Below, one piece after another: positions 776 to 63,758 of a stretch of 64,000 bases of DNA (within the stretch, counting starts at the first letter, position 1; every line of letters starts with the position of its first letter). Location of the stretch: the NCBI GenBank assembly GCA_900316005.1, contig ONBH01000004.1, positions 1 through 64,000 of the forward strand, read 5' to 3'. The notes beneath the pieces are model-generated. The model was given only the letters and a program-made list of their open reading frames with translations, did not search any database and had not been told where the DNA came from. The stretch is from an uncultured Bacteroidales bacterium (lineage in GTDB: Bacteria > Bacteroidota > Bacteroidia > Bacteroidales > Paludibacteraceae). The translations under genes were made by a program, and so were the position numbers.

Positions 776-803
776 AATGAATAATGATTAATGAATAATG
801 AAT
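776..803. repeat. Heptamer array, AATGAAT x4
   Basis: Four exact 7-bp units (AATGAAT, one variant AATGATT) lie between the thioesterase ATG and its promoter, so they fall in its 5' untranslated region. Confidence 0.8.
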
Positions 804-838
804 ATTTTTTGTCGTTGGTTGTTAGTCTAAAAAACGCT

Positions 839-871
839 GCAAAGGTACGGAAAATAGTTCATTTGTGCAAG
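839..871 (-). promoter_or_regulatory. Promoter of the thioesterase gene
   Basis: On the minus strand, CTTG (868-871) lies 20 nt before TACCTTTGC (839-847). Confidence 0.65.
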
Positions 872-928
872 CATCGGTCACTTTTTTTCAAAAAAAAACA
901 CAATATTTTGCATTTTTTGTCAGAAAAA

Positions 929-961
929 TTTGCGTATGTCAAAAAAAAGCAGTACTTTTGC
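929..961 (+). promoter_or_regulatory. Promoter of tRNA-Cys and probably sufB
   Basis: TTTG 929-932 and TACTTTTGC 953-961, gap 20 nt. The spacer carries TGTCA, an A-run and GCAG, shared with the promoters at 2723, 2984 and 13351. Confidence 0.8.
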
Positions 962-979
962 AGCCGCTTTTGAAAAATT

Positions 980-1053
980 GGTCGGTTGCCCGAGTGGTTA
1001 GGGACCGGTCTGCAAAACCGGGGACAGCGGTTCGAATCTGCTACCGACCTCCA
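980..1053 (+). tRNA. tRNA-Cys (anticodon GCA), CCA encoded
   Basis: The acceptor arms GGTCGGT (980-986) and ACCGACC (1043-1049) pair fully. The anticodon stem CCGGT/ACCGG encloses CTGCAAA, giving anticodon GCA. Discriminator base T1050 is the usual base for Cys. CCA is encoded at 1051-1053. Confidence 0.95.
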
Positions 1054-1055
1054 TG

Positions 1056-1077
1056 GAGCCGCCTGATAGGGCGGCTC
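1056..1077 (+). terminator. Hairpin between tRNA-Cys and sufB
   Basis: GAGCCGCC and GGCGGCTC form a perfect 8-bp stem. No T-run follows, so it may be a processing or attenuation hairpin rather than a full stop. sufB begins 18 nt later with no promoter of its own in between. Confidence 0.5.
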
Positions 1078-1095
1078 TAATAGTATAAACAGACG

Positions 1096-2532: not shown

Positions 2533-2541
2533 CTTCTTTAG

Positions 2542-2662
2542 TTTAGAGTTGAGTGTTGAGTGTTGAGTGCAGTTTAGAGTTTAGAGTTTAGAGTTGAGTG
2601 TTGAGTGCAGTTGAGAGTTGAGAGTTGAGTGCAGTTTAGAGTTTAGAGTTGAGTGTTGAGAG
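2542..2662. repeat. Heptamer array of TTTAGAG and TTGAGTG units punctuated by CAG
   Basis: About sixteen 7-bp units of three types (TTTAGAG, TTGAGTG, TTGAGAG) are arranged in runs. The first three runs each close with the triplet CAG. The array fills the gap between sufB and the next promoter and encodes nothing. Confidence 0.85.
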
Positions 2663-2755: not shown

Positions 2756-2784
2756 AGTCCCGTTTGAATGAAACGTGGTTATAT

Positions 2785-23134: not shown

Positions 23135-23830
23135 ATGACAATAATAGGTATTGAAACCAGTACGAAGGTCTGTTCGGCGGCGTTATGCCAAGACGGCAGG
23201 GTAATACGGCAGGAACTATCCCGCGACGCGGGCAATCATGCCGGATTATTGCCCGTATATATACAGCAACTGTTGGCGTATGCGCGTCAGGAGCAACTCC
23301 CCATTGATGCCATCGCCCTGAGCGAAGGACCGGGCAGCTATACGGGTTTGCGTATCGGCCTGAGTACCGCCAAAGGACTCTGTTACGGGCTCAACATACC
23401 CCTCCTGCCTGTTTCTACGCCCGAGGTTCTATGCCATGCTGCTATTGCCAGCGGCAAAGTGCCCCCGGGGGCGCTGCTCTGCCCCATGATTGATGCCCGA
23501 CGCATGGAGGTCTATACCGCCCTGTATCGTTATACGGCGGATGGATTGCAGGCGCTGAGCGCCATCGAGAGCCGCGTCATCGTAGATGATAGTTGGCCCG
23601 CGGTGGATGCTACGGAGAACTTGTACTATTTTGGTGACGGAGCTGAGAAATGCTGCTCATTATTGGAAAATGACCGCCGCCATTATCTGCCGGATATCCT
23701 GCCCGAAGCACAGCACTTAATGGTGAAAGGGGAAAGGTTAATGGTTAAGGGGGCAGATATTGCTTATTATGAGCCATTCTACCTCAAGGAGTTTCAGGCT
23801 GCGCCCTCGCACGTAAAAGGGTTGACGTAA
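23135..23830 (+). CDS. tsaB: tRNA threonylcarbamoyladenosine biosynthesis protein TsaB
   Basis: 231 residues. An ASKHA-fold partner of TsaD in making t6A37 of ANN-decoding tRNAs. Signatures are IGIETSTKVCSAAL at the start, EGPGSYTGLRIGLSTAKGLCYGL (about 65-87), and the C-terminal YYEPFYLKEF. Residues around 195-205 read LMVKGERLMVKG and come from a 35-bp run of five heptamers (23717-23751) inside the gene, replacing the variable helix usual there. The protein still looks complete. Confidence 0.92.
   Translation: MTIIGIETSTKVCSAALCQDGRVIRQELSRDAGNHAGLLPVYIQQLLAYARQEQLPIDAIALSEGPGSYTGLRIGLSTAKGLCYGLNIPLLPVSTPEVLCHAAIASGKVPPGALLCPMIDARRMEVYTALYRYTADGLQALSAIESRVIVDDSWPAVDATENLYYFGDGAEKCCSLLENDRRHYLPDILPEAQHLMVKGERLMVKGADIAYYEPFYLKEFQAAPSHVKGLT
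23717..23751 (+). repeat. Heptamer array inside tsaB
   Basis: Five consecutive 7-bp units, including TTAATGG twice and TTAAGGG once, are translated as part of TsaB. The same TTAATGG unit is found in the intergenic array at 62197-62216. Confidence 0.75.
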
Positions 23831-23955
23831 TTGATAGTTGATAGTTGATAGTTGATAATTGATAGTTGATAGTTGATAATTGATAATTGATAGTTCTTAT
23901 CTCGGCAAAGCCTCGAACGATCGGCTAAAGCCGTACGATAGTTGATAGTTGATGG
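23831..23955. repeat. Heptamer array TTGATAG/TTGATAA in two blocks
   Basis: Nine exact 7-bp units fill 23831-23893. After a 48-nt stretch with small hairpins (GGCTTTAGCC-type), two more units occur at 23942-23955. The last unit, TTGATGG, contains the ATG of the next gene (23952). Confidence 0.85.
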
Positions 23956-31737: not shown

Positions 31738-31798
31738 GCCTGAATTGTGTGTTAGTACATTTTGAAACGAAAAATATTAACTCTAAAGAATAAAGAAT

Positions 31799-32035
31799 AT
31801 GTCAGACATTGAAGCAAAAGTAAAAGCCATCATCGTTGACAAACTTGGTGTGGAAGAGTCACAAGTAACCCCCGAAGCGAGCTTTGCAGCCGACCTGAAT
31901 GCTGATTCGCTGGACACCGTTGAACTGATTATGGATTTTGAAAAAGAGTTCGGAATCACTATCCCCGATGAGGATACCCAGAAGATTTCGACCGTAGGTG
32001 ACGTCATCGCTTATATCGAGAACGCCAACGCCTAA
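31799..32035 (+). CDS. acpP: Acyl carrier protein
   Basis: 78 residues, strongly acidic. The carrier of growing acyl chains in type II fatty-acid synthesis. The phosphopantetheine attachment site is Ser37 in [12 protein letters not shown]. It is followed by a hairpin terminator-like element and then fabF, the normal arrangement. Confidence 0.97.
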
Positions 32036-37510: not shown

Positions 37511-37554
37511 ACGACGGTCGAACGACAGTCGAACGACGGTCAAACGACAGTCAA
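37511..37554 (+). repeat. Four 11-bp tandem repeats, ACGACRGTCRA
   Basis: Four head-to-tail units alternate ACGACGGTCRA and ACGACAGTCRA without gaps, 70 nt upstream of the next start codon and inside its leader. They could be operator or RNA-binding sites. Confidence 0.75.
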
Positions 37555-41158: not shown

Positions 41159-41457
41159 TCGGGGCTCCCGGCGAAACTTGTTTCGTTGGGGAAAAGGAGG
41201 AAGGTCTAGGTCTCTTTATGCCGTTGGAGACGGCATCCGATAGACCAAGATCAGCATTCGGGGCCCCCGGCGAAACTTGTTTCGTTGGGGAAAAGGAGGA
41301 AGGTCTCTGACTTTTTATGTCGCTGTATGCGACATCTGTAGTCTGAGATCACAATTCGGGTCCCCAAAAAGCTCAGTATGAGGTTTTTGGGAAAAGGAGG
41401 AAGGTCTTGGTCTCTTTATGCCGTTGGAGACGGCATCCGATAGACCTAGACCTTCCG
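41159..41457 (+). repeat. Tandem array of three composite structured repeats
   Basis: Three units of about 98 bp start at 41159, 41258 and 41356. Each has module 1, a GGGGnCCCC or GGGTCCCC stem with an inner arm (CGAAAC/GTTTCG in the first two, GCTCA/TGAGG in the third) ending GGGAAAAGGAGGAAGGTC, and module 2, a hairpin such as ATGCCGT/ACGGCAT bracketed by GGTCT and AGACC. The third unit ends 4 nt from the tmRNA 3' end. The 315-nt gap holds no gene. Confidence 0.8.
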
Positions 41458-41460
41458 ACG

Positions 41461-41890
41461 TGGAGATAGCGGGAGTCGAACCCGCGTCCAAACAGGGAAC
41501 AAATACGCTTTCTACATGCTTATTTCGGCCTTCATTTTCGTCCGTTGGCAAGACCCGAACCACCAACCAACGGCTTATCTGCTATTGTTTCACCTCGCTG
41601 TCGCAGCGCCATTGAGGCTATCTTCGCAATTTCTGCACCGCTATAGGACACCCCATAAATCAAAGATTTCTCGGGGACCCCGTTACCCATTCAGCCGCGA
41701 AGCCGGGCTTGGAGCGATGTCTCGATTCCCCACCTTGTGGGGAAATAAGGCTAACCTACTGTACTTCGGTTAGGCAGCGAGAGCATAGTTGTTGTTGCCA
41801 GTTAAATTGTTTAGACCCGATTTACGTGCGGTGTCCGTGCACGGCATGCTTACCTACCCATCCTGCCTGCTGTCAAAACCAATTATCCCC
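41461..41890 (-). ncRNA. ssrA: Transfer-messenger RNA (tmRNA)
   Basis: Rescues stalled ribosomes. The 5' end GGGGATA (41884-41890) pairs with 3' TATCTCC (41462-41468), and discriminator A is at 41461. The T arm GCGGGTTCGACTCCCGC is perfect. The tag frame at 41770-41799 reads GNNNYALAA then TAA, inside the usual hairpin. CCA is not encoded. Length about 430 nt. Pseudoknot segments contain TTCCCCAC/GTGGGGAA and GGGGTCCCC stems. The tagged products would be degraded by ClpXP, also encoded here. Confidence 0.95.
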
Positions 41891-45495: not shown

Positions 45496-46641
45496 ATGAA
45501 AATTCTGCATACAAGCGATCTGCATATCGGGAAACGCGTGAATGAGTTCTCGATGATAGACGACCAGAAATACATTCTACAGCGGATAGAACATATCGTA
45601 GCGGAAGAACAACCCGATGTGGTGATCATAGCAGGCGATGTATATAACTCCGCAACACCCTCGGCTGAGGCGGTGGTTTTGCTGAGTGATTTTATCACGC
45701 AGCTGCATGCACGTTGTCCGCATGTGGTCATCCTATCCGGCAACCACGACAGCGCCGAGCGTTTGGCATTCGGCTCAGCCATCATGCGCCGTAACGGCGT
45801 GTATTTCTCGCAGCCCTTCAGCCGCGAGCCGCAGAAGCTGACGATACCGGATGTGTACGGCGAGGTTAACATCTACCTGTTGCCGTTTGTGCGTCCGATA
45901 GATGTAAGGTCTGCCTTCAAGGACGCGTTGGAGGACAGCGGTGAGCCGATGGAGCGCTACGACGAGGCTGTCGCCAAGGCAGTAGAAGCCATGAAGCCGG
46001 ATTATTCAGCGCGTAATATTCTGGTAGCCCACCAATATATCCAAGGCGGCGAGCGATGCGAGGGAGAGGAAGTTGTGGGCGGTCTGGACGAGGTGGATGT
46101 GGAGATAGTCCGGCAGTTTGACTATGTGGCATTGGGACACCTGCACCGTCCGCAACACGTGCAGTACAAGCATGTACGCTATTCCGGTTCGCCGCTCAAA
46201 TACTCGTTCTCGGAAGTGCAGAATACCAAAAGCGTCAGCATCATTGAACTGAGCGAGAAAGGCCGGACGACGATACGTGAGAGGGAGTTGGTTCCCCTGC
46301 ATGACTGGGCAGACCTGCGCGGTACATACGATGAGTTGATGTCCGAAGCATTCTATGTCGGCAAGGGATATGAGAACATGTATGTAAGACTGACGCTGAC
46401 GGACGAAGACGAGGTGGTGGACGCGATGAACAAGCTACGGAACGTCTATCCGCTGGCGATGGTGCTACAATACGATAATACGCGCACGCGCCATAACCAA
46501 CAGTGCGTAGAGACCGAGCATATGGAAAACAAATCGCCGCAGGAGTTGGTGTGTGAGTTCTTTGAGAAACAGAACGGCCAGCCGATGAACGAGGCGCAGA
46601 GCGAATTAGTAACGAACCTTATTCAGGCGATTTTTGTATGA
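45496..46641 (+). CDS. sbcD: Exonuclease subunit SbcD
   Basis: 381 residues, Mre11-type metallophosphoesterase. Metal-binding motifs are ILHTSDLHIGK, IIAGDVYNSATPS, ILSGNHDSAERL, VAHQYI and ALGHLHRPQHV. With SbcC it opens hairpins and palindromic DNA ends, which is relevant in a chromosome so rich in hairpin repeats. Its stop overlaps the sbcC ATG (ATGA). Confidence 0.96.
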   Translation: MKILHTSDLHIGKRVNEFSMIDDQKYILQRIEHIVAEEQPDVVIIAGDVYNSATPSAEAVVLLSDFITQLHARCPHVVILSGNHDSAERLAFGSAIMRRNGVYFSQPFSREPQKLTIPDVYGEVNIYLLPFVRPIDVRSAFKDALEDSGEPMERYDEAVAKAVEAMKPDYSARNILVAHQYIQGGERCEGEEVVGGLDEVDVEIVRQFDYVALGHLHRPQHVQYKHVRYSGSPLKYSFSEVQNTKSVSIIELSEKGRTTIRERELVPLHDWADLRGTYDELMSEAFYVGKGYENMYVRLTLTDEDEVVDAMNKLRNVYPLAMVLQYDNTRTRHNQQCVETEHMENKSPQELVCEFFEKQNGQPMNEAQSELVTNLIQAIFV

Positions 46642-49376
46642 GACCTATTCAGTTGACCTTACAATACTTCGGCTCGTATGCCGAAAAGCAGACCATCGAC
46701 TTCAGCCGTTTGGGCACACAGGGTCTGTACCTGATAACCGGCGATACGGGCAGCGGTAAGACGACTATCTTTGATGCCATCCTCTATGCGTTATACGGTT
46801 CGATGAGCGGTGAATATCGCAGCAAGGACACGCACGTGCTGCGTTGCTCGATGGCGCAGCCGACCGACAAAACCGAAGTGACGCTCTGTTTCGACTACGC
46901 GGGCTATCGGTACGAGATATGCCGTTGGATGGACTATGAACGCAAGAAAGAACGCGGCGAAGGCCTGACGGGCGTGTCCGCAGGTGCGCTATTGCTGTGT
47001 CCGGATGGTAAGACGATTAGCAAAACCAAGGAGGTGGACGCGAAGATTCAGGAGGTGTTGGGCATCAGCCGTGACCAGTTCTCGCAGATAGCGATGATAG
47101 CGCAGGGCGATTTTATGAAGCTGCTGATGACAGAGACCCGCGATCGGCTGCCGCTCTTTCGGAAGATATTCAGAACCGAGAACTACAAGATGCTGCAGGA
47201 TAGGGTAACACAGACTTTTTTGGACAGCAAGAAACAGTACGAGGAAACCAAGGTGTCCGTTAGCACCATCATGGGCGGCGTACAATGCGCCGAGGGTTCG
47301 GCACAACAGCCGGCATTGAGGCAGGCGCAAGACATGAAGCAGTTTACCACTATAGCCCGGATGATAGAAATCATCGAGGCTATTCTGGCTGAGGACCAAG
47401 TTGCCATCGCCGAACAGAAACGTCAGCGCGAGGCGCAGGACCTCATCATCAAGCGCTGTAACGAGCAGATTGCCATCATCGGAAGCCATGAGAAAGCCGC
47501 CGAGCAACTGCCTAAAGAACAAGAGAAACTGCAGCATCTCGAGCAAGAAGAGCAACCGGCGAAGGAGAAACAGTTGGCAGTCGCCCGTGAGGCAGAACCG
47601 GAGATAGAACGACTCAATACGCAGGCGACGCAACTGGAAAGTAACATAGGCGATTATGAGGTGTTGGCCGCTTGTCAGCTTCACCTGGTGGAAGCCCAGA
47701 AGACGCTGCAGAGCATAGAAGGTCCGAATGGGACCGAGGCTAAATGTAGGCAGACCTTGCAGATGCTGTTGGACGAACGCGAGAGACTGAATGCCGAGTT
47801 GGCGGCATTGGGCAATCCGGAATCGGAACAGGCGGCTATCCAAGCACAGTTAGACCGGTTAACCCGTTACCAGGCCGATTTGACTGCCTTAGAGAAGAAT
47901 CGAACCTTGCTCCAAAAGGCGCAAGAGGGTTATCAAACACGCAATCATGCTGCCGAGGAAGCGGAGAATGCGTTGAGCCGGAAGACCAGTCTGTTTTACG
48001 CTGCGCAGGCAGGCATCCTGGCAGAAACTATCGTGGAAGGGCAGCCTTGTCCGGTCTGCGGTTCGGTTCACCATCCTGCCAAGGCTAAGAAAACCGAAGG
48101 TGCACCGTCGAAAGAACAACTGGAGGTATTGAAGCAAGATACAGACCGGAAACGCAAAGCCGCTATCGAGCAATCCAACGTCTGCGCCGGCATACTTAAG
48201 ACGATAGAAGCCGAGGAAAACCGCTTGCGGGAAATGGGTTATCGCGCCGATATTGCTGAGCTGAATCAGTTGCCCGAGCAAATCCACGGCTTGCAGAAGC
48301 AACTGGGGGAAGTCACACAGAAGGTAACACGCAAGCAGGCTATCCCCGTTTTGCTGCAGAAGAACACAGAGCGACGTGACAAGGGATTGGCGTACGCGAA
48401 GACCTTGGGTGAAACGAAAGCCAAAGCCCTTGCAGATCGCGATCATGCCGCAGCACAAATCCAAACGCTGCAAGCCCGATGCCGATTTAAGAATGGCGCG
48501 GAAGCCCAAGCGGAGATAACCAAGCTGCGTAAGGAAGCCCAGACCCGCAAGCAAGCTATAGACACCGCACAAAACGCATTGAATACCACCATACAGGCCA
48601 TTGCAACGGTACAGGCAACCATCCGCACGCTGCAGGAGACCCTGAAAACCATCGTTCATATCAACAAAGCCGACGAAGAAGCCCAACGGCAAGCAGCACA
48701 GGATGAGATCAACAACCGCATCGCTCCAATCCTAACCGCCATCGAGGGCCGCATCAGCCAGAACCGGGCAGCCATGGCGAGGTTGGGCAGCAAAGAAAAA
48801 GAGATGAAAGTGATAGAGGATAAGTATCAATGGCTCAAGACACTGAATGACACCCTGACCGGGCAGCTGTCCGGCAAGGAGAAAATCATGCTGGAGACCT
48901 ATATCCTATCCGCCTATTTCGAACGTATCATCCGCAAAGCCAATCTGCGCCTGCTGAAGATGACCAATAACCAATACGAGTTACGCCGCAAGAGAGAGGC
49001 ATCGAATAACGCCCAGCAGAGCGGTCTGGACTTGGATGTGGTGGACCATCATAGCGGCTCGACGCGTACGGTCAAGGGTTTGTCTGGCGGAGAGTCTTTC
49101 ATGGCTTCCCTCTCGCTGGCGCTCGGTCTGAGCGATGAGATACAATCGTCGGCAGGGGGGATCCATCTGGACACGATGTTTGTGGACGAAGGTTTCGGTT
49201 CGCTGGACGAGGATAGCCGTATTCAGGCGCGCAACACCCTGCAGAAACTATCGCAGGATGGCAACCGCTTGATAGGCGTCATATCGCACGTGCCGGAACT
49301 GAAAACCATTGAGAAACAGATTCAGGTGCGCAAGAATCAGAAAGGCATCTCCACCGCCGAAGTGGTTCTGCTGTAG
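46638..49376 (+). CDS. sbcC: Exonuclease subunit SbcC
   Basis: 912 residues, Rad50-type ATPase. Walker A GDTGSGKTT (about 35-43), two long coiled coils, the zinc hook CPVCG (about 470-474), then the signature LSGGESFMASLSLALGLSD and Walker B with FVDEGFGSLDEDS (about 846-858). Together with SbcD it forms the Mre11-Rad50-like complex. Confidence 0.96.
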   Translation: MRPIQLTLQYFGSYAEKQTIDFSRLGTQGLYLITGDTGSGKTTIFDAILYALYGSMSGEYRSKDTHVLRCSMAQPTDKTEVTLCFDYAGYRYEICRWMDYERKKERGEGLTGVSAGALLLCPDGKTISKTKEVDAKIQEVLGISRDQFSQIAMIAQGDFMKLLMTETRDRLPLFRKIFRTENYKMLQDRVTQTFLDSKKQYEETKVSVSTIMGGVQCAEGSAQQPALRQAQDMKQFTTIARMIEIIEAILAEDQVAIAEQKRQREAQDLIIKRCNEQIAIIGSHEKAAEQLPKEQEKLQHLEQEEQPAKEKQLAVAREAEPEIERLNTQATQLESNIGDYEVLAACQLHLVEAQKTLQSIEGPNGTEAKCRQTLQMLLDERERLNAELAALGNPESEQAAIQAQLDRLTRYQADLTALEKNRTLLQKAQEGYQTRNHAAEEAENALSRKTSLFYAAQAGILAETIVEGQPCPVCGSVHHPAKAKKTEGAPSKEQLEVLKQDTDRKRKAAIEQSNVCAGILKTIEAEENRLREMGYRADIAELNQLPEQIHGLQKQLGEVTQKVTRKQAIPVLLQKNTERRDKGLAYAKTLGETKAKALADRDHAAAQIQTLQARCRFKNGAEAQAEITKLRKEAQTRKQAIDTAQNALNTTIQAIATVQATIRTLQETLKTIVHINKADEEAQRQAAQDEINNRIAPILTAIEGRISQNRAAMARLGSKEKEMKVIEDKYQWLKTLNDTLTGQLSGKEKIMLETYILSAYFERIIRKANLRLLKMTNNQYELRRKREASNNAQQSGLDLDVVDHHSGSTRTVKGLSGGESFMASLSLALGLSDEIQSSAGGIHLDTMFVDEGFGSLDEDSRIQARNTLQKLSQDGNRLIGVISHVPELKTIEKQIQVRKNQKGISTAEVVLL

Positions 49377-49400: not shown

Positions 49401-49428
49401 TATTCATTGTTAATTATTCATTATTCAT
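49401..49428. repeat. Heptamer array TATTCAT x4
   Basis: Four 7-bp units, one a variant (TGTTAAT), in the gap between sbcC and the glnS promoter. It is the complement of the AATGAAT array at 776-803. Confidence 0.75.
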
Positions 49429-49436
49429 TGAAAAAA

Positions 49437-49469
49437 TTTGCGTATGTGCAATTTTTGTAGTACCTTTGT
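49437..49469 (+). promoter_or_regulatory. Promoter of glnS
   Basis: TTTG 49437-49440 and TACCTTTGT 49461-49469, gap 20 nt; the -33 region reads TTTGCGTATGTGCAAT. Confidence 0.75.
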
Positions 49470-49501
49470 AGGCTAATTTGCAGAAAAAATAAAATAACTA
49501 T

Positions 49502-51217: not shown

Positions 51218-51238
51218 TTGATAGTTAAGAATTGAGAG
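51218..51238 (+). repeat. Short heptamer run providing a TTG start
   Basis: TTGATAG, TTAAGAA and TTGAGAG in register directly after the glnS stop. The third unit holds the TTG start of the next gene. Confidence 0.55.
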
Positions 51239-51663
51239 AAGAGTTAAAGACGCGCATAGACGGTGATAAGAGTCAGGTCTTCTGTATCTGGCGCCACCGT
51301 TGGGTACGACTGACCCCCGAAGAATGGGTACGACAGCAATTCCTTCATCATCTGGTGGAGGAACTTGCTTACCCCTCCGGCCGAATAGGTGTGGAGGTGG
51401 CTATTCATGTAGGCGATGTGTCCAAACGCTGCGATGCCATCGTGTATGACGCATACATGAGGCCCTGGATGCTGCTGGAATTTAAGGCGGAATCGGTGGC
51501 GCTGACCCAGCGTACGCTGGACCAGGCAGCCGTCTATAACCGCAAACTCAAAGCACCCTATCTAATTCTCAGTAATGGCCCTAAAACCATAGCCGCCTGC
51601 GTGACGGAGAACCGAATCGAGTTCCTCAACGAGTTACCTCACTACTCCGTTCCCGGTTCTTGA
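51232..51663 (+). CDS. Type I restriction HsdR N-terminal-like (HSDR_N_2) nuclease-fold protein
   Basis: 143 residues, TTG start. A stand-alone PD-(D/E)xK domain of the kind found at the start of type I restriction R subunits: acidic E-rich helix (EWVRQQFLHHLVEEL), CDAIVYD and LLEFKAE supply the Asp and Glu-x-Lys of the active site. No helicase, specificity or methylase subunit is nearby, and similar stand-alone proteins are common in Bacteroidota next to housekeeping genes, so restriction is not implied. The true role is unknown. Confidence 0.78.
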   Translation: MREELKTRIDGDKSQVFCIWRHRWVRLTPEEWVRQQFLHHLVEELAYPSGRIGVEVAIHVGDVSKRCDAIVYDAYMRPWMLLEFKAESVALTQRTLDQAAVYNRKLKAPYLILSNGPKTIAACVTENRIEFLNELPHYSVPGS

Positions 51664-51676
51664 GCGACAAAAAAGA

Positions 51677-51704
51677 TATTCATTATTCATTAATCATTAT
51701 TCAT
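51677..51704. repeat. Heptamer array TATTCAT x4 before phoH
   Basis: Four units in register (one TAATCAT), 22 nt upstream of the phoH ATG. Confidence 0.75.
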
Positions 51705-51725
51705 TACTATCGCCAACGACAAAAC

Positions 51726-52667
51726 ATGGACAAAATCATCGAACTAAACGATAACACGGATACCTCTGTTTTCTATGGGGTAAACAACCATAATATGCTC
51801 TGCCTCAAGAACCAGCATCCGGACCTTCGTATCGTGGCGCGTGGTTATCAGGTGAAGGTTAGCGGGACGGAGAGTGCCATTCAGCGATTTGAGAAGAACC
51901 TTCGTGCCGTAGAGCGTTTCTGCATAGCTAACAACACGCTTTCCGAGAAAGAGATTCTGACCCTTTTGCACGGCGGGCAGCCGCAGGAATACCAGAAAGA
52001 AAGTCTCATCCTGCACGGCGTGAATGGCAAGAGTATCGTGGCGCGCTCCCTTAATCAGCAGCGGCTGGTGGATCTATATGCCGAGAATGACCTCCTCTTT
52101 GCCATCGGCCCAGCCGGTAGTGGTAAGACCTATACGGCTATCGCACTGGCGGTGCGGGCGCTGAAAAATAAGGAGGTGAAGCGTATTATCCTCTCGCGTC
52201 CGGCCGTAGAGGCGGGCGAGAAATTAGGTTTCCTGCCCGGCGATATGAGGGATAAGATTGACCCCTACCTGCAGCCGCTATACGACGCCTTGCAGGATAT
52301 GATTCCGGGGGCTAAACTCAACGAATACATGGAGCGCGGGGTGATACAGATTGCCCCCTTGGCTTTCATGCGCGGACGGACGCTCAGTGATGCGGTCGTC
52401 ATACTGGATGAGGCACAGAATACGACCGGTTCGCAGCTGAAGATGTTCCTGACGCGTTTGGGCATCAACGGCAAGATGATTGTGACCGGTGACCTGACGC
52501 AGATTGATTTGCCCGCCTCGCAGCGGTCTGGACTGAAAGATGCCATTGCGCGCCTACGCGATATAAAAGGTATAGCCATCGTCGAGTTCAACCAAAAGGA
52601 TATCGTGCGTCATCCGCTCGTCTCACGCATCGTAGATGCTTACTCAAAGCGTGAAGAGGAAGTCTAA
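51726..52667 (+). CDS. PhoH-like ATPase/RNA-associated protein
   Basis: 313 residues from the ATG at 51726. A KH-like N-terminal region (about 25-80) precedes the PhoH NTPase with Walker A GPAGSGKT (about 128-135) and Walker B VVILDEAQN (near 224). SRPAVEAGEKLGFLPGD and VTGDLTQIDLP are family hallmarks. It is thought to act in RNA metabolism. The 3' end overlaps the convergent aroB by 24 bp. Confidence 0.9.
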   Translation: MDKIIELNDNTDTSVFYGVNNHNMLCLKNQHPDLRIVARGYQVKVSGTESAIQRFEKNLRAVERFCIANNTLSEKEILTLLHGGQPQEYQKESLILHGVNGKSIVARSLNQQRLVDLYAENDLLFAIGPAGSGKTYTAIALAVRALKNKEVKRIILSRPAVEAGEKLGFLPGDMRDKIDPYLQPLYDALQDMIPGAKLNEYMERGVIQIAPLAFMRGRTLSDAVVILDEAQNTTGSQLKMFLTRLGINGKMIVTGDLTQIDLPASQRSGLKDAIARLRDIKGIAIVEFNQKDIVRHPLVSRIVDAYSKREEEV

Positions 52668-56584: not shown

Positions 56585-57165
56585 TATACTGGCAGTTATT
56601 TTTAGCGTTTATGCGTGTCGGCTTCTTGGGCTTTGGCGGAGGCATGGCGATTATATCCCTGATACGCAGTGAGGTATTGGAACACGGCTGGATGACTGAC
56701 CAGGAGTTCGTAGATATCGTCGCCATCAGCCAGATGACGCCCGGACCTATAGGTATGAACTGTGCCACCTATGTCGGTTATACAGCCACGGGTAGCGTGT
56801 GGGGTAGTCTACTGGCGAGCTTCGCCATCATTCTTCCGAGTCTGATAATCATGTCTGTCATCTGTCGTATCTACGATAAATTGCAGGCAAAATGGAGTGA
56901 GAATAAGGTTTATCAGACCGCAATGCGTATCATTCGTATATTAGTTGTGCTGCTTGTTGCATATGCGGCATGGAGTCTGATGAATCCCGCATCGTTTATT
57001 GACAGCCGCAGTTGGGTGATATTTGCGTTGGTGTTAGTGTGCAGTATTCTGCCGGATATGACCGCCAAGACAAGGCTGAAGGGCAGCCGGGTGGTGAATA
57101 TAGCGAGTCACCCGATGCTGCTCATAGCAATAGCAGGAGTAGTAGGACTCCTGCTATATAATTAA
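56581..57165 (+). CDS. chrA: Chromate transporter, second half protein
   Basis: 194 residues from the ATG at 56581; the frame extends upstream but only within the first half gene. It has GFLGFGGGMAIISLIRSEV, ISQMTPGPIGMNCATYVGY and about five membrane segments, the full half-size length. The TAA (57163-57165) lies inside a 7-bp AATTAAG array. Confidence 0.85.
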   Translation: MIYWQLFLAFMRVGFLGFGGGMAIISLIRSEVLEHGWMTDQEFVDIVAISQMTPGPIGMNCATYVGYTATGSVWGSLLASFAIILPSLIIMSVICRIYDKLQAKWSENKVYQTAMRIIRILVVLLVAYAAWSLMNPASFIDSRSWVIFALVLVCSILPDMTAKTRLKGSRVVNIASHPMLLIAIAGVVGLLLYN

Positions 57166-57187
57166 AAATTAAGAATTAAGAATTCTT
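57160..57187. repeat. Heptamer array AATTAAG x4
   Basis: AATTAAA, AATTAAG twice, AATTCTT in register, spanning the stop of the second chromate transporter gene. Confidence 0.75.
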
Positions 57188-57194: not shown

Positions 57195-59486
57195 TTAGAT
57201 CTTTTCTAATTTGGCGTAGGTAAGGAGCAGGGTTTTCTTGCCTTGCTTGTCGAAGAGGATATCGATTTTCTCGTTATCGTTCTCGTTGTATATGCGTTGT
57301 ACGGTGCCATCTCCGAAGACGCGGTGGCGAACCCGATTGCCGGCGGCAAAGGTGCTGTTGGTGGTAGCAGATGGTTTTGCTGCGGGTGTTATTGGACGGA
57401 ACCTGTCAGTTGGAGTGGCAGTAGGTTGTGCCGTATAGGTCGGGCGGCTATAACCGGGCATCGGCGAGCCGTATCGGGTGGGCGATGGTTGAGGCGTAGC
57501 AGCTTCCTGCAGCTGGAGGCAGCTACGGTCAATATCATTCAGGAACCGCGAAGGCGAGGAGAAATTGATGGTACCATTCTTGAAACGTTGCCGAGCATAC
57601 GTGAGGTTGCACACCTGCATGGCGCGGGTGATGGCTACATAGAGCAGGCGTCGTTCTTCCTCTATCTCAGCGGATGACTTGCAGAACTGTGACGGAAAGA
57701 GATTTTCCTCAAGCCCTACGATATAGACCACGGCGAACTCCAAACCCTTGGCGGCATGGACGGTAAGCAGCGTCACGCGCGGCGTTTGATCCTGTAAGTT
57801 CTCGTCCTGGTCGGTCAGGAGACTGATCTCGCCCAGGAAATCCTGAATCGGCGTGAAAGATATGCCCTCCTGCATGCGTCTGTCCACAAACTCATGAATA
57901 CCGGATAGCAGTTCGTCCAGATTCTGCTTGCGGTCCAGCCCCTCGGCCGTAGTGTCGAGCGCGGCGGCGGTCATGATGCCCGATTCGCGCATAACGGTCT
58001 CGGCAAAGAAGTAGGCATCGGTGGAATCGATAGCCTCCTGAAAACGGCGGATGGTGTCGGCAAAGTTCTGTATCTTGCGTTTGGCAGCGGGTGATACGGG
58101 CAGTTGGTAGCGGTCAGGGTTGGTCGCTACCTCAAACATGGACACCTTATTCTCTATTGCGCATAGCGATAGGCGTTTGACGGTCGTCTCACCGATACCG
58201 CGTGCGGGATAGTTGATGACGCGTTGCAGGGCTTCGTTGTCGTAGGTATTGGCGGCGAGGCGGAAATAGGCAACGGCGTCTTTTATCTCCTTGCGCTGGT
58301 AGAACGATGTTCCGCCATAGATGCGGTAGGGGATGTTGTGATGCCGAAGTTCATTTTCCAGGGCTCGCGACTGGGCGTTGGTGCGGTAGAGCACGGCGAC
58401 ATCATCGGCGGTGATCTTCTTTGAGCCGGTGAGCGGCAGACGCAGGTAGGTGCTGATGCCCTGCACAACGCCCTGTGCCTCCTCGCGGTCGGACAGATAG
58501 CCGGTCAGGCGGAGGCGTGCGCCCTCTTCGTTCTCGGAATAGGCTTCCTTGAATATCTGGTGCTCGTTATGCTTGATGAGGCTGTTTGCTGCCCGCACGA
58601 TGGTTTGTGTGCTACGGTAGTTGCGCTCCAGTTTGAAGAGTTTGGCATTGGCATAGCCTTGCTGGAAGGACAGAATATTTTGGATATCCGCTCCGCGGAA
58701 GGAATAAATCGACTGCGCATCATCTCCCACCACGCAAATATGGTTTTGCGGTTCGGCGAGTTGACGCACGATGAGGTACTGAACATGGTTGGTGTCTTGA
58801 TACTCATCCACGAGGACGTAATGGAAGATCCCCTGGTAATACCTGAGAATTTCAGGATGCTGGCGGAAGAGCAGGCAGCAGTTGACCAGCAGGTCGTCAA
58901 AGTCCATCGCATTAGCAGCCTTGAGCCGCGCCTGGTAGTACTCGTAGAGCCGGCTCATCTCGTAGAGCCGGTCGTATCGGTCGTTTTTCTGAATCTGTGC
59001 ATCCCGTGCGTACATCTCGGGCGAGATGAGACGGTTCTTTGCCGATGAGATGCGGCTGAGCACATCGGGTGCCTTGTACACCTTTTCGTCTAACTGCAGT
59101 TCGCGCACAATCTGCTTGATGAGCGAACGTTGGTCGGGCGTGTCGTAGATGGAGAAATCACGCGTGAAGCCCAACTGCTCTGCTTCGTGTCGTAGGATAC
59201 GGTAACAGATGGAATGGAAGGTACCCATCCACAGATAGCGTGCTTCGCCTGCAGGCACCAGTTTGGTAATGCGCTCCTGCATCTCGCGCGCAGCCTTATT
59301 GGTAAATGTTAAGGCCAAAATGTTCGAAGCCCGCACACCCGAGGCCAAAAGGTAGGCTATCTTGTATGTGAGTACACGTGTCTTACCGGATCCCGCGCTG
59401 GCGATAACCAGTTGGGGACCCTCATTATATACCACTGCAGCTTGCTGCGAGGGGTTTAAATTCGATATTTTATCTAAAAATTCCAC
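57195..59486 (-). CDS. UvrD/PcrA-type ATP-dependent DNA helicase
   Basis: 763 residues, superfamily 1A helicase. Motif I ASAGSGKT (about 29-36), motif II DEYQDTN (near 225), GDDAQSIYSFRGA, motif IV-VI blocks TVHAAKGLEF and VAITRAM. The C-terminus ends with a Pro/Thr-rich tail and a TUDOR-like module (RVRHRVFGDGTVQRIYNENDNEKIDILFDKQGKKTLL), as in PcrA. Acts in nucleotide excision repair and transcription-replication conflicts. It shares a palindromic divergent promoter with the methyltransferase. Confidence 0.93.
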   Translation of the reverse strand: MEFLDKISNLNPSQQAAVVYNEGPQLVIASAGSGKTRVLTYKIAYLLASGVRASNILALTFTNKAAREMQERITKLVPAGEARYLWMGTFHSICYRILRHEAEQLGFTRDFSIYDTPDQRSLIKQIVRELQLDEKVYKAPDVLSRISSAKNRLISPEMYARDAQIQKNDRYDRLYEMSRLYEYYQARLKAANAMDFDDLLVNCCLLFRQHPEILRYYQGIFHYVLVDEYQDTNHVQYLIVRQLAEPQNHICVVGDDAQSIYSFRGADIQNILSFQQGYANAKLFKLERNYRSTQTIVRAANSLIKHNEHQIFKEAYSENEEGARLRLTGYLSDREEAQGVVQGISTYLRLPLTGSKKITADDVAVLYRTNAQSRALENELRHHNIPYRIYGGTSFYQRKEIKDAVAYFRLAANTYDNEALQRVINYPARGIGETTVKRLSLCAIENKVSMFEVATNPDRYQLPVSPAAKRKIQNFADTIRRFQEAIDSTDAYFFAETVMRESGIMTAAALDTTAEGLDRKQNLDELLSGIHEFVDRRMQEGISFTPIQDFLGEISLLTDQDENLQDQTPRVTLLTVHAAKGLEFAVVYIVGLEENLFPSQFCKSSAEIEEERRLLYVAITRAMQVCNLTYARQRFKNGTINFSSPSRFLNDIDRSCLQLQEAATPQPSPTRYGSPMPGYSRPTYTAQPTATPTDRFRPITPAAKPSATTNSTFAAGNRVRHRVFGDGTVQRIYNENDNEKIDILFDKQGKKTLLLTYAKLEKI

Positions 59487-59555: not shown

Positions 59556-60893
59556 ATGCTGCCTATCGATTTTTTAGATAGAACACGCCAGCAAATGGGT
59601 TCGGAAGCAGACCATTTGTTTCGGGCTTTGGAGGAAGAAGCGCCTACCAGCATCCGTCTGAATGACAAGGTGGATGTGCTTACTTTTTCTTGTGATACGG
59701 CTGAAGTTCCATGGCATATCGATGGGTATTATTTGGATGAACGCCCACAGTTTACGTTGGATCCGCTGTTTCATGCCGGTTGTTATTATGTGCAGGAAGC
59801 CGCCTCGATGTTTGTGCAGCAGGCGCTGGACCAATATGTTGCCAAAAACAGCGTGGTATTAGACCTATGTGCGGCGCCCGGCGGCAAATCAACCCTGATA
59901 AGTCAGTTCTTGGGCGACGAGGGGCTACTCCTAAGTAACGAGGTCAATCGTCAGCGGGTGTTTATTCTAAGCGAGAATATCCAGAAGTGGGGTAATGGAA
60001 ATACAGTAGTGACCCACAATCCGGCGGAGGACTTCGGCGAAAGGTGTCGCAACCTCTTTGACTGCGTGCTGGTGGATGCTCCATGTTCGGGCGAAGGCAT
60101 GTTTCGCAAGGACCCGACTGCCCGCGCGGAGTGGAGCGTGCAGAATGTGCGCATGTGTGCCGAGCGGCAACGTAAGATTCTGATGGATGTGTGGCCGGCT
60201 CTGAAACCCGGCGGAATTCTCATCTATTCGACCTGCACCTTCAATGAGGAGGAAAACGAGGATAATGTACAATGGATAGAAGACTGCCTTGGTGCGCAAG
60301 TGCTCCCCCTACAGTATCAGCCTTCGTGGGGGATCACCGAGGGATATCCCGGTTATCATTTCTATCCGCATAAAACCAAGAGTGAGGGCTTGTACCTCTG
60401 CGTGTTACGCAAGATGGAAGAGCCGTTCGCGCCCTACCGTATCCGTGAAGGTAAGAAGGGCGACCCGAATGTCAACTACGAGAATGAGATGCGCCGTTGG
60501 CTTTTGAAACCGGAGCAATGGGTCATCCGTCAGAACGATCGTTTCATGACGGCATATCCTAAGAAATATAAGGAGTTAATCGAATATCTCTCTACCCAAC
60601 TTATCTGTATCTCCACCGGCTTTGGTATTGGCGAAGAGCGTGGTCGAACGGTGGCTCCGCAGCATGCATTAAGTATGGCCAAGGCCCTTAATAAGAAAGC
60701 CTTCCCTAATGTGGAACTGGATCTGGAGAAGGCCTTGAGTTACTTGAGAATGGAGGCCATTTCGTTGCCCCAGAGTCTGCCTTTGGGTGTGTTGCTACTC
60801 ACGTATCAGGGTGTAGCCATCGGTTTTGCCAAGAATGTCGGCAATCGCCTCAATAACCTTTATCCCAAGGAGTGGCGCATCCGCCGGCTGTGA
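59556..60893 (+). CDS. NOL1/NOP2/Sun-family rRNA cytosine-C5 methyltransferase (RsmF-like)
   Basis: 445 residues. SAM-binding LDLCAAPGGKSTL (about 107-119) and the two cysteines of the mechanism in VDAPCSGEGMFRKD (near 176) and STCTFNEEEN (near 226). A C-terminal RsmF-type extension follows (from about 300). It methylates cytosine in 16S rRNA; the exact base is not shown. The last 34 bp overlap the convergent DEAD helicase gene. Confidence 0.9.
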   Translation: MLPIDFLDRTRQQMGSEADHLFRALEEEAPTSIRLNDKVDVLTFSCDTAEVPWHIDGYYLDERPQFTLDPLFHAGCYYVQEAASMFVQQALDQYVAKNSVVLDLCAAPGGKSTLISQFLGDEGLLLSNEVNRQRVFILSENIQKWGNGNTVVTHNPAEDFGERCRNLFDCVLVDAPCSGEGMFRKDPTARAEWSVQNVRMCAERQRKILMDVWPALKPGGILIYSTCTFNEEENEDNVQWIEDCLGAQVLPLQYQPSWGITEGYPGYHFYPHKTKSEGLYLCVLRKMEEPFAPYRIREGKKGDPNVNYENEMRRWLLKPEQWVIRQNDRFMTAYPKKYKELIEYLSTQLICISTGFGIGEERGRTVAPQHALSMAKALNKKAFPNVELDLEKALSYLRMEAISLPQSLPLGVLLLTYQGVAIGFAKNVGNRLNNLYPKEWRIRRL

Positions 60894-62194
60894 TTTTCTG
60901 TTGAGGCCGGGTTGTCTTTCGAAGCTGGCTGTTCTGTTGAAATGGAGTTGTTTTTCGAAGTTGGCTTGTTTTTTGAACGAGGCTTATTTTTTGTTCTGGG
61001 CTTGTTTTTTGAGTGAGGCTTGTCTTTTGAGGCGGGTTTGGCGCATTCGTTGACGATAGGAGCTTCGCCCAATTCGGCGGGAACGGGAATACGTTCGATA
61101 CGTTTATGCAGGAAGTTCTCGATTTTGGCAAAGTAGCGTCTATCATCCGGGCCGATGAATGTGACGGCTGCACCTTTATTCTCGGCACGCGCGGTACGCC
61201 CGATACGGTGGACATAGTCCTCGGCATCGCGTGGCACATCGTAGTTGATGACCAGCGGTATATCGTCCACATCAATGCCTCGCGCGACGATATCGGTGGC
61301 AACGAGGACGTCAATCTTGGCATTGCGGAAATCCAGCATCACCTCATCGCGTTCTTTTTGCTCAAGATCCGAGTGCATGGCGCGTGCGTTGAGACCCTTT
61401 TGCCGCAAGGCGAGTGTGAGATCTTTGACGCGCTGTTTCTTGCCGACAAAGACGATGACTTTCTTCATGCCATCGTGGATAAGCCGCTGCACCATGCCGG
61501 TTTTCTGGTTGTCGTAGAGGTCCACCGCCATCTGATGAATCGTTTCGGGCGGGCGCGAGATAGCAATCTGCACTTCCACGGGGTCGTGCATGATGGCTTT
61601 CGCCATTTTGCGGATATCGGCTGGCATGGTGGCTGAGAACATGATTTTCTGGCAGTCCTGCGGCAGGCGCTTGTAGATAGTCATGATGTCGTCGTAGAAA
61701 CCCATGTCTAGCATCCTATCGGCTTCATCCAATATGAAGTATTTGACGCCTGAGAAGTCGATATCGTATATATTCATGTGTGAGAGCAGTCGTCCCGGCG
61801 TGGCGATGACGACGTCCGCACCTGTTTGCAGACCCTTAATCTGTGTGCCCCAAGCTCCGCCGTCGCGTCCGCCATAGACGGCAACGGATGAGAAGGGTAC
61901 GAAATAGCCGAAGCCCTGCATCTGTTGGTCAATCTGCTGTGCCAGTTCGCGCGTAGGCGCCATGATGATGGCGTTGAGTTTGTCGGGATCATGACCATCG
62001 AACTCGAGGTTGGTGAGCAGGGGCAGGATATAAGCGGCGGTTTTGCCGGTACCGGTCTGGGCGCACGATATCACATCGCGTCCCTCGAGTATGACTGGGA
62101 TGGTTTTTTCTTGAACCGGCGTACACTCGTCAAAATGCATATCCCATAGGGCATCTAATACGCCGTCTGAAAGGGGTAATTCGTCGAAATACAT
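60860..62194 (-). CDS. DEAD-box RNA helicase (RhlE/CsdA-like)
   Basis: 444 residues. Q-motif CTPVQEKTIP, motif I AQTGTGKT, PTRELAQQ, DEAD in FILDEADRMLDMGF, SATMP, and HRIGRTAR are all present. After the helicase core (to about 375) comes a lysine-rich tail built of near-repeated 6-residue units (K-N-K-P-x-S types), a common RNA-binding extension. It probably unwinds structured RNA in ribosome assembly or decay. It is read with the SDR gene upstream, 15 nt apart. Confidence 0.93.
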   Translation of the reverse strand: MYFDELPLSDGVLDALWDMHFDECTPVQEKTIPVILEGRDVISCAQTGTGKTAAYILPLLTNLEFDGHDPDKLNAIIMAPTRELAQQIDQQMQGFGYFVPFSSVAVYGGRDGGAWGTQIKGLQTGADVVIATPGRLLSHMNIYDIDFSGVKYFILDEADRMLDMGFYDDIMTIYKRLPQDCQKIMFSATMPADIRKMAKAIMHDPVEVQIAISRPPETIHQMAVDLYDNQKTGMVQRLIHDGMKKVIVFVGKKQRVKDLTLALRQKGLNARAMHSDLEQKERDEVMLDFRNAKIDVLVATDIVARGIDVDDIPLVINYDVPRDAEDYVHRIGRTARAENKGAAVTFIGPDDRRYFAKIENFLHKRIERIPVPAELGEAPIVNECAKPASKDKPHSKNKPRTKNKPRSKNKPTSKNNSISTEQPASKDNPASTENHSRRMRHSLG

Positions 62195-62196
62195 TA

Positions 62197-62216
62197 TTAT
62201 GGTTAATGGTTAATGG
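62197..62216. repeat. Heptamer array TTAATGG between two genes
   Basis: A shortened unit then two TTAATGG units. The TAA of the SDR gene (complement of 62210-62212) is inside. Confidence 0.6.
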
Positions 62217-63736
62217 TTTTTCTCCCATCCCTCAAAGACTTCCGGACCGTAAACGTTGTCTTCATCGGCATCGTGTAATGGAGCCCAGAGTTGTGCGAAG
62301 AATGGGTTGCGTTTGGCTTCTTTGTCCCACTGCCAGGGACGGCTGTAACTAACGTTGGGGTAAGGCCAGGGGAAACACTCGGGGCACCAATGGCCACCCA
62401 GTAGCACCAGACGCGGCGAGGCCATAAACTTGTGCCCCTCGGCGCATTGCCACTCTAATTTCGTATCCCAATCCCCTTTCATCATGGCGTTGCTGAGGCA
62501 TTTGCCGCCTCGGAATTGTGCCGCATGCTGCATATCCTTGATGGTAAACTCCGACATCGGCTTCTGTTCATCATAGCCGTGGTTGAGTCGGATGGCCTCA
62601 TTGGAGTTGTGGCTAAGGTCCATCTTCTTCCAGGGCAGGATGGCACGGTATTTTTCCAACGAACCATAGTAGGCGTGGATGCGGTCTGTTTTGTGGTGCA
62701 GGATCCACCATTGTGTCCCGTGTTCGCGTGACATAGCCATAAACCACATGGCGAGTTTGATGATATGCGGGAAGAAACGGGCGATACGGGTCTTGGCGGC
62801 AAACTTGATACCGGCCGGCAGGGACGGACTCTGCGCCATGCGGCGGAAATATTCCTCCACGGGTACATTATCGCGGAAGTGGAGCATGTCTTCCAAATCA
62901 TCGCCATCAAGGTACCACATACCGTGGAAATTACGGGTGGTGAACCACTTGGAATTAAATATTTTTTCCGGCTTAGGGCATCCGATGGCATTCAGTAGGA
63001 GGCACTCAAACTCGTAATTGGAGAGTCGGTATTGAGGTCCGGAACCGATGTTGTAGTAGCGTTTCCAGAATCGTTCGGGCACTTCGTCGCGGCAAACGCG
63101 CTCCAGAAGTCGTCCGCTGTCCTCAACGGTAGCCCACTCCAATACGCCGCGGATGGGTACGTGGAACATGATGGGGTCGTAGTTCTTGAGAATAGCAGGG
63201 TAGAGTATGCCTGACTGGCGCAGGCTGACCCATTTCTTGATACCGCTGTCTGTTAGGATGCGTTCCGCCCAGGCCTTGGTGATGCCATAGTGGTCGTATG
63301 CCGACACGCAGATCGGGTCTCCGGTGCGTCCCCAATGAAGCGGTTCGCGGCGGTCGCCCATCTGGGCAACGGAACCGATATAGACAACGGCGGGCTGGTT
63401 GTTACCCTGTGCAAGGACGGCGTCACGCACATTTTCGGCGGCTTTGATATTCGTTTTACGCGTAGCGGTCGGACGGTAGTCGGCCTGTGGCGAAACCATG
63501 CCGCCTACATGCAGCACGTAGTCTGAACCCGTGACGCCCCGGAGCACATCTTCGTAGCGCGTCAGGTCACCCCAAACCACCTCGATACGGTCGAGGTGGG
63601 GGGCCAACAATTTCTTATTCTTCTCGCTCGGGCGCGCCAGCACGCGCACCTTGTATTGCTCGGGGTAACGCAACAGTTCCTGCATGCCTGCGAATCCCAT
63701 GGTTCCGGTTCCACCGGTTAGAAAAATCGTTTTCAT
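62210..63736 (-). CDS. NAD-dependent epimerase/dehydratase fused to a C-terminal zinc-ribbon-like domain
   Basis: 508 residues. Extended SDR domain: TGGTGTMG at 7-14, GSVAQMG, and YGITK (active Tyr and Lys), to about 310. A middle region with no clear family follows (about 310-405). The C-terminus (about 410-470) has GGKCLSNAM, LEWQCAEGHKF and GGHWCPECFP, the pattern of a treble-clef zinc ribbon with paired Cys around a Gly-His. Such a domain on a sugar-type SDR is unusual. It is read with the antiporter and helicase on the minus strand. The substrate is unknown. Confidence 0.8.
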   Translation of the reverse strand: MKTIFLTGGTGTMGFAGMQELLRYPEQYKVRVLARPSEKNKKLLAPHLDRIEVVWGDLTRYEDVLRGVTGSDYVLHVGGMVSPQADYRPTATRKTNIKAAENVRDAVLAQGNNQPAVVYIGSVAQMGDRREPLHWGRTGDPICVSAYDHYGITKAWAERILTDSGIKKWVSLRQSGILYPAILKNYDPIMFHVPIRGVLEWATVEDSGRLLERVCRDEVPERFWKRYYNIGSGPQYRLSNYEFECLLLNAIGCPKPEKIFNSKWFTTRNFHGMWYLDGDDLEDMLHFRDNVPVEEYFRRMAQSPSLPAGIKFAAKTRIARFFPHIIKLAMWFMAMSREHGTQWWILHHKTDRIHAYYGSLEKYRAILPWKKMDLSHNSNEAIRLNHGYDEQKPMSEFTIKDMQHAAQFRGGKCLSNAMMKGDWDTKLEWQCAEGHKFMASPRLVLLGGHWCPECFPWPYPNVSYSRPWQWDKEAKRNPFFAQLWAPLHDADEDNVYGPEVFEGWEKNH

Positions 63737-63737
63737 G

Positions 63738-63758
63738 TTAGTCGTTAGTCGTTGGTGT
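63738..63758. repeat. Heptamer array TTAGTCG at the antiporter stop codon
   Basis: TTAGTCG twice, then a divergent unit. The complement of the second unit holds the TAA of the antiporter gene. Confidence 0.6.

Follow-up and report, generated by a model that had tools for sequence, protein, structure and literature searches.

Tandem arrays of exact 7-base units are a known class of bacterial repeat. According to the excerpts of MacGregor 2015 (PMC4679880) drawn on here, a survey by Mrazek in 2007 found heptamers to be the most abundant long repeat in most of the genomes surveyed and proposed polymerase slippage as their origin, and why heptamers should be the favoured length has been an open question since that year. 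The same excerpts describe TAACTGA arrays in Beggiatoaceae, some Cyanobacteria and five Bacteroidetes, with two sets in Paludibacter propionicigenes. The present analysis concerns the heptamer arrays of a 64,000-nucleotide stretch (the window; positions 1 to 64,000 of contig ONBH01000004.1, assembly GCA_900316005.1) from an uncultured bacterium of the family Paludibacteraceae, lying on contig 25 of a draft genome of 2,271,107 bases in 56 contigs that is 98.26% complete. The reading favoured here, with a confidence a little above even, is that these arrays result from a species-specific burst of heptamers, produced by slippage together with non-local copying and subsequently filtered by selection on stop codons and reading frame.

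The excess of period 7 was assessed in the window and in a sample of 853,495 bases (37.6% of the genome) from seven contigs, in part or whole and including the window; as contigs were picked for their length and for a (TTGATAG)3 match, array density in the sample is possibly somewhat high. Requiring at least 10 matches at the lag for an exact array, the window contained 13 arrays of period 7, none of period 6, one of period 8 and four of period 9, and ten Markov-1 resamplings of the window gave a mean of 0.0 period-7 arrays. The excess over neighbouring periods that the initial annotation of the window had anticipated for the genome was borne out across the full 853,495 bases, with 184 arrays of period 7 versus 5, 22 and 24 at periods 6, 8 and 9. 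Periods 14 (107 arrays), 21 (92) and 28 (35) were also raised, as expected from the mixing of variant heptamers, as was period 11 (37). The exact arrays are short, with a median of 2.7 and a maximum of 7.7 copies. An artefact of assembly or binning is next to inconceivable: although the compared genomes are mostly fragmented drafts and repeats generally cause misassembly, arrays of this length would fit within one short read, loops carrying different units occur in several separate genomes and the reading frames remain open.

The arrays are written in a small number of units. When rotation and strand are ignored, 211 arrays in gaps between genes represent 47 unit classes, compared with approximately 182 expected from heptamers of non-array gap sequence, and the largest class accounts for 45 of the 211, the maximum in 200 random draws being 7. 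The form GANNNTT describes 95 of the 211 gap arrays versus 8% of random gap heptamers. The units had been described from the window as unrelated, which has to be withdrawn: they are rather a small related set, several differing by one base, and AATGAAT at 776 is the unit of the arrays at 49401 and 51677 (TATTCAT) read on the opposite strand. The accompanying claim of one generating mechanism rather than one mobile sequence stands insofar as a single mobile sequence fails to explain the arrays. Stop codons were considered as the cause of the units and rejected, since a stop on some strand, present in 193 of the 211, is hardly less common in letter-permuted units (0.87 vs 0.89).

Too few unit classes are present for purely local slippage to be the explanation. 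Under that model each array would arise from a chance duplication in place, with a length of 7 favoured by the polymerase footprint or by escape from mismatch repair, and the period-7 excess with its higher-order periods speaks for it. Longer loops of 7 bases are missed by mismatch repair, and the window encodes a mutL with the expected domains, so that mismatch repair is probably present. However, one unit recurs at dozens of places, three loops of a single RlmB-type gene share one unit type (see below) and arrays of period 11 outnumber those of period 7 in five of the seven relatives sampled, leaving local slippage alone unlikely.

Relatives were compared using one genome per species, from 649,121 bases in 35 loci selected at a GlnS identity of at least 80% and from 800,000 bases of seven congeners sampled at 100-160 kb each; the GlnS of the window is nearest to those of drafts, largely from gut or rumen, labelled Paludibacteraceae or Bacteroidales and in one case Tidjanibacter. 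With a cut-off of nine matches for the comparison with relatives' loci, period-7 density was 279 per Mb in this genome, 69 in the 35 loci, 42 in 23 loci at 66-75% identity and 15 in 22 outer loci; the seven sampled congeners ranged from 25 to 117 per Mb. Matches to (GATARTT)3 were present in 23 of 101 genomes searched, this one included, with 138+159 here and 44+39 in congener G049; 41 of 60 congeners lacked any. Period 11 was denser than period 7 in G106 (180 vs 30 per Mb), G101 (75 vs 25), G008 (60 vs 30), G060 (70 vs 50) and G049 (112 vs 106), and in the 35 pooled loci (77 vs 69). The fall-off in density across relatives suggests a recent burst. Given these densities and the greater density of period 11 in most of the sampled congeners, the burst is a property of this species, and period 7 is no fixed trait of the group. 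The window itself carries period-11 sequence at 37511-37552 (ACGACAGTCGA), and the period-11 excess in the genus is strongest in G106 (contig 22).

Tandem Repeats Finder and the exact scan recovered period-7 arrays at, or close to, most sites initially reported in the window, with the exceptions of 23717, which has two separated TTAATGG copies and no clean array, and 51218, which has hardly more than one TTGATAG plus decayed units. The array features of the window are as follows.

776-804, minus strand: (ATTCATT)4, just upstream of the minus-strand open reading frame (ORF) 380-772 (script call).
2540-2662, plus strand: mixed array of TTTAGAG, TTGAGTG and TTGAGAG, about 16 units, between sufB (stop at 2532) and a tRNA-Met gene (2785).
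23717-23752, plus strand: decayed TTAATGG-type stretch within tsaB, encoding LMVKGERLMVKG.
23831-23895, plus strand: (TTGATAG)9, immediately 3' of the tsaB stop codon.
23896-23936, plus strand: 41-base double-hairpin element embedded in the heptamer array.
23937-23953, plus strand: (GATAGTT)2.4, after the hairpin element and into the start of porW/sprE.
31784-31799, plus strand: (TAAAGAA)2.3, after mutL; absent from the initial annotation.
34380-34398, plus strand: (AAATGGT)2.7, over the junction at which the asd stop overlaps the start of the following gene.
49401-49429, plus strand: (TATTCAT)4, in the sbcC-glnS gap.
51218-51249, plus strand: short decayed TTGATAG/TTGAGAG stretch, immediately after the glnS stop.
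51677-51706, plus strand: (TATTCAT)4, at the 5' end of the listed phoH ORF (51660-52667); the true phoH start probably lies downstream of the array.
57160-57184, plus strand: (AATTAAG)3.6, between a chrA-type ORF and uvrD.
62199-62218, minus strand: (TTAATGG)3 as read on the plus strand, across the short gap of two minus-strand genes.
63737-63753, minus strand: (TTAGTCG)2.4 as read on the plus strand, in the gap upstream of ORF 62210-63736.

Directly after the ATTCATT-class array at 49401 is a promoter-like sequence (TTTG-N20-TANNTTTG, 49429-49490). A general promoter link of ATTCATT arrays was rejected, as promoter-like sequence accompanies only 3 of the 15 members of the class in the sample.

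Genes in the sample were called with a longest-ORF script (646 genes), by which 148 of 188 merged arrays were intergenic where 15.7 were expected, indicating a bias to non-coding sequence and upholding the initial placement of the arrays at gene borders. Co-directional gaps held 128 of them (10.2 expected), divergent gaps 14 (3.9) and convergent gaps 6 (1.6), with 21 internal to genes (148.3 expected), 8 at gene 3' ends, 8 at 5' ends and 3 at contig edges. Positions within 10 bases of a stop were taken by 41 of 156 arrays, compared with 8.6% of random gap positions, and positions within 10 bases of a start by 32 of 156, compared with 11.2%.

The gap arrays are also oriented along transcription. 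Orientation counts exclude in-gene arrays, contig edges, convergent and divergent gaps, and gaps above 1,000 bases (family-majority count) or 1,500 bases (wider-gap count); arrays of one class no more than 60 bases apart were merged, and only families with at least three members entered the family-majority count. In co-directional gaps no longer than 200 bases, all 51 arrays from the four GANNNTT families of three or more members were sense, as were 54 of 56 in gaps of up to 1,500 bases. On the transcript, co-directional gap arrays of class AACTATC read as GATAGTT in 27 of 28 places and those of class AATTATC as GATAATT in 17 of 17; the small GANNNTT family AACACTC is split 1:1. Across 17 families, 109 of 126 arrays followed the majority direction of their family (random mean 80, maximum 92), and 55 of 70 did so once the GANNNTT families were removed (random mean 46.7, maximum 58 in 2,000 assignments). 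A stop-free array beside a start may be absorbed by the gene caller into a longer ORF, and five in-gene GANNNTT-family arrays exist, giving a worst-case count of approximately 51:5. A replication-strand effect was rejected: the rule is kept for both gene strands of one contig, and orientation therefore follows transcription. Stop content is not the sole cause either, because ATTCATT (9:1), whose sense strand is stop-free, and AAAAATT (8:0) are strongly oriented. Relatives show the bias weakly or not at all, with 3 sense and 5 antisense in pooled loci, 9:5 sense in single loci (23 of 30 classed, 14 of them in co-directional gaps) and, in G049, 9:2 sense in gaps of up to 200 bases with 5:9 in longer ones (33 distinct arrays, 8 outside co-directional gaps).

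A functional transcript element, whereby gap arrays would act on the mRNA as a protein or ribosome site or as a three-frame stop spacer enabling the next start, is unlikely but credible. The sense orientation on both gene strands, the adherence to family majorities and the enrichment near stops and starts speak for such an element, and the TAACTGA repeats of Beggiatoaceae are similarly forward-oriented in the excerpts of PMC4679880. Set against this, the other families stay below the random maximum in their adherence, AACACTC shows no preference, relatives lack a clear bias and the gene caller may have absorbed some contrary arrays. Nor were the sufB and glnS gaps conserved in relatives with readable loci (for sufB only the readable rows of 30, several others being in the wrong frame or past the locus end), and no RNA structure of array or hairpin was found beyond that of shuffles (z -0.95 and -1.0).

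Within GANNNTT arrays there is a recurrent double-hairpin element of 41-42 bases, whose 15-base core GCCTCGAACGATCGG occurs 50 times in this genome and is found in 12 of the 71 genomes of the genus, this one included; the match in G015 resembles chance coding sequence. The sample contains 18 complete copies of the element: 16 lie between GANNNTT units on either side, and the other two have such units on the right and TATAGTT on the left. Two ORFs, C16:127494-130400 and C19:86444-87298, also contain the 41-base hairpin. If this element were mobile and carried the arrays with it, they would be footprints of REP- or MITE-like transposition, possibly with 7-base target duplications. In favour of such a carrier are the number of copies and their two-sided flanks, and the flanks of other species, which differ in unit but match on both sides (GAGAGTT in G102, GAGTGTT in G007); a 7-base target duplication was also considered for TAACTGA in the excerpts of PMC4679880. 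However, the two flanks of a copy resemble each other no better than flanks taken from different places do (0.83 vs 0.79 mismatches), so that within-genome similarity indicative of a target duplication was not found and this candidate was set aside. Many arrays moreover lack the hairpin, including in-gene AACCGA and AATCACC arrays, and a search with Y1_Tnp, the family of the RAYT transposases to which the short palindromes of REP/BIME elements are linked, returned one weak match here (25.9 bits) and matches in 22 of 71 genomes, by eye 5 of the 12 with the hairpin, leaving the link to a transposase unsupported. A mobile origin is thus improbable, and the hairpin accompanies the arrays without explaining them. 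A further companion sequence, CTAGACGACT, is found repeatedly between heptamers of the CTCAAC type (this genome, G000, C16:166985-167133, locus L039).

Arrays also lie within genes, in open frames, for 27 of 238 arrays. It had been stated initially that any gain or loss of a unit shifts the frame; this holds inside genes for single units, but three units make 21 bases, and the 27 in-gene arrays are all in open frames. Units AACCGAG or AACCGAT account for 15 of the 27, versus 8 of the 211 gap arrays, and encode heptads of the NREPRTE or LGSRFSV type; the in-gene arrays listed are heptamers spanning 16-30 bases in unrelated ORFs. Freedom from stops was discounted as evidence (none of 7 with a sense stop at three or more copies; 20 of 20 and 5 of 5 in relatives stop-free), because it is implied by the open-frame definition.

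Orthologous loci were compared for GlnS, SufB, ValS, RlmB, LpxB and TsaB. The RlmB-type RNA methyltransferase (TIGR00186, below cut-off) carries NREP-type (AACCGA) stretches in three separate loops, the first of which varies in length and sequence among species (26 of 30 loci parsed, 25 relatives' loops aligned). ValS holds (AACTATC)4 just before the DTWFSS motif, as aligned to its best solved homologue, 1gax; in 22 of 30 ValS loops the length is nine residues. Loops of LpxB (TIGR00215; 30 of 30 loci parsed) and TsaB (TIGR03725; loop DNA obtained for 14 of 30 rows) behave like those of RlmB and ValS. Some relatives carry exact arrays of different units in these very loops: in G003 and G041 for RlmB, in G035 and G009 for ValS (AAATGGT repeats), in G044, G022 and G046 for LpxB, and in G030 and G004 for TsaB, where the loop of the decayed TTAATGG stretch of the window holds (GAAAGTG)4 and two CAATGGT copies, respectively. 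In the L11 methyltransferase and LpxH-like proteins, the alignment to solved structures did not extend to the array.

In relatives alone, lag-7 identity surpassed all 200 codon shuffles in two of the loops: in RlmB it was 0.358 over 24 relatives (shuffle mean 0.268, maximum 0.299), in LpxB 0.333 over 29 relatives (mean 0.274, maximum 0.303). A further unit, AATCACC, was present as a triplet in 21 of 71 genomes, including G003, G006 and G037, the genomes in whose loops it had first been suspected. The loci returned, which represent 20 of the 21 genomes, contain 25 distinct arrays, 20 of which were placed in ORFs and encode SPITNHQ; some of the 20 represent orthologous places in two species. The recognised host proteins include aspartokinase, RibF and, in two species, RlmN; AroA and RlmL matched below the family cut-offs. 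A 21st in-gene array lies in the rlmB of G003 (locus L461), missed by the gene caller. In addition, the RlmB loops of G002, G044 and G045 (L289, L295 and L303) contain repeats of approximately 20-24 bases with CAGTCCGAAGGACGGTCT in place of heptamers; the same loops thus accept several kinds of repeat in some congeners.

The most likely explanation for these patterns combines three steps. Replication slippage of 7-base loops would lengthen and shorten existing arrays. Existing units may then be copied non-locally to other sites, either by ectopic gene conversion between arrays or by template switching during break repair, a step proposed because the same unit is found in three loops of a single gene and at many other places. 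Selection would finally retain only frame-keeping, stop-free readings within genes and, between genes, those orientations on the transcript that are harmless or mildly useful. The peptides that in-gene arrays encode are most probably by-products that the proteins tolerate.

Several observations weigh against a species-specific burst of this kind. The greater density of period 11 in five of the seven sampled relatives is not predicted by a preference for 7-base slippage, and the 51 of 51 sense bias exceeds what mere tolerance would need, with the orientation of ATTCATT and AAAAATT not explained by stop content. In the loops, the lag-7 identity of ValS in relatives (0.293) is within shuffles (maximum 0.296), lag 6 exceeding lag 7 there because most ValS loops share one sequence; lag 8 lies just above shuffles in RlmB (0.311, maximum 0.300) and LpxB (0.309, maximum 0.303); and exact arrays at seven or more matches occur in just 1 of 24 RlmB, 2 of 29 ValS and 3 of 29 LpxB relatives' loops. 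The ValS loop of G029 has the same length as that of this genome, yet without an exact array. Neither a donor-recipient pair nor a copying enzyme was found.

Two further proposals would assign repeat formation to a dedicated agent. That a trans-acting process in the genus writes species-specific short repeats into new sites, mainly 7-base ones in this species and in-frame loops of essential enzymes included, and replaces their units over divergence is rather unlikely; if true, repeat-making would be a standing source of variation in protein loops and operon spacers. A telomerase-like reverse transcriptase of the DRT10 type, adding heptamers at broken ends, would fit the non-local spread of one unit, and DRT10 makes tandem-repeat DNA from a non-coding RNA according to the excerpts of PMC12632851. 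It is very improbable here, because no RVT_1 match was found in this genome (98% complete), while 19 of 70 searched congeners have one and G049 has two, yet fewer arrays.

Other features of the window were recorded alongside the arrays. Genes for repair are present with the expected domains, namely mutL (29874-31646), an sbcC-like gene (46638-49376) and uvrD (57195-59486), so that functions bearing on repeat stability are represented. Approximately three copies of a 99-base GC-rich repeat (41159-41450) adjoin the tmRNA gene (41460-41890, minus strand), and an 18/36-base repeat (60948-61030) lies towards the end of ORF 60860-62194, which encodes a DEAD-box helicase. An Rfam scan of the window returned just the tmRNA and three tRNAs.

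These results bear on how a known but poorly explained repeat class may also reshape proteins. With 71 or more species genomes, one of them in full burst, the genus offers a natural series for unit, place, orientation and frame; the in-frame loops shift heptamers from a non-coding curiosity to a matter of protein evolution; and the occurrence of differing repeats in the same RlmB, LpxB, ValS and TsaB loops makes spread, tolerance and unit replacement directly testable.

In comparison with described systems, as represented by excerpts of the cited papers, a close likeness is to TAACTGA (PMC4679880), which shares exact 7-base units in 2-6 copies, a mostly intergenic location, sporadic distribution between relatives, forward orientation, stops in three frames, overlap with upstream gene ends and a reverse strand encoding a repeating heptapeptide inside some ORFs. 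The initial annotation had known of no description in Bacteroidota, but these heptamers were reported there in five species, including Paludibacter propionicigenes; beyond its two TAACTGA sets, no heptamer-repeat report for this group was found in the searches made of open-licence full text. TAACTGA itself (class AACTGAT) does not figure among the 42 classes of exact units that reach 10 or more matches in the 853-kb sample. Of four 50-kb stretches from the cyanobacterial Trichormus variabilis plasmids A and C, the first gave 3 arrays, a number too small for a cross-phylum comparison of units. The heptameric LSSR/STRR of Cyanobacteria and other bacteria (Mrazek 2007, via PMC4679880 and PMC4692102) are alike in their period-7 excess, patchiness and mainly non-coding location, and the GGGNATC arrays of Xanthomonas and Nostoc (Rehm 2015, PMC4692102) in favouring co-directional gaps, being scarce in divergent gaps and coding regions and varying in length between species. 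The main units here differ from GGGNATC in lacking quadruplex-capable G-runs, and GGG or CCC is in none of the eleven most frequent unit classes of the 853-kb sample. Insertion in frame into unrelated protein-coding genes is known from Rickettsia palindromic elements (Ogata 2000, 2002, via PMC10969869), which are however about 150 bp, palindromic and of conserved peptide, whereas the arrays here are mostly bare 7-base repeats with units that differ by species. Borg tandem repeats (PMC9879509) likewise evolve fast, form independently and lie both in gaps and in frame in ORFs; the present cases concern bacterial draft genomes, mostly 7-base units and conserved enzymes. In phase-variation contingency loci a change in repeat length switches surface genes; the neighbours here include sufB, glnS, tsaB and asd, unlike the surface genes usual at such loci.

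The combination of numerous related units with a single-species burst and with same-loop units that differ among congeners was not found in the searches made of open-licence literature. The TAACTGA system has one dominant unit, with related heptamers rare as repeats, and its ORF cases lie mostly at protein ends; here there are dozens of units, many of them related, and internal loops of conserved enzymes are affected with units varying by species. Relative to LSSR/STRR, the distinguishing features are the hairpin composites, the orientation along transcription and the in-frame loops. What extends beyond the known class is the use of few units at many places, the orientation of the larger GANNNTT families with transcription in short co-directional gaps of this genome, and the in-frame loops that hold other heptamers in some relatives.

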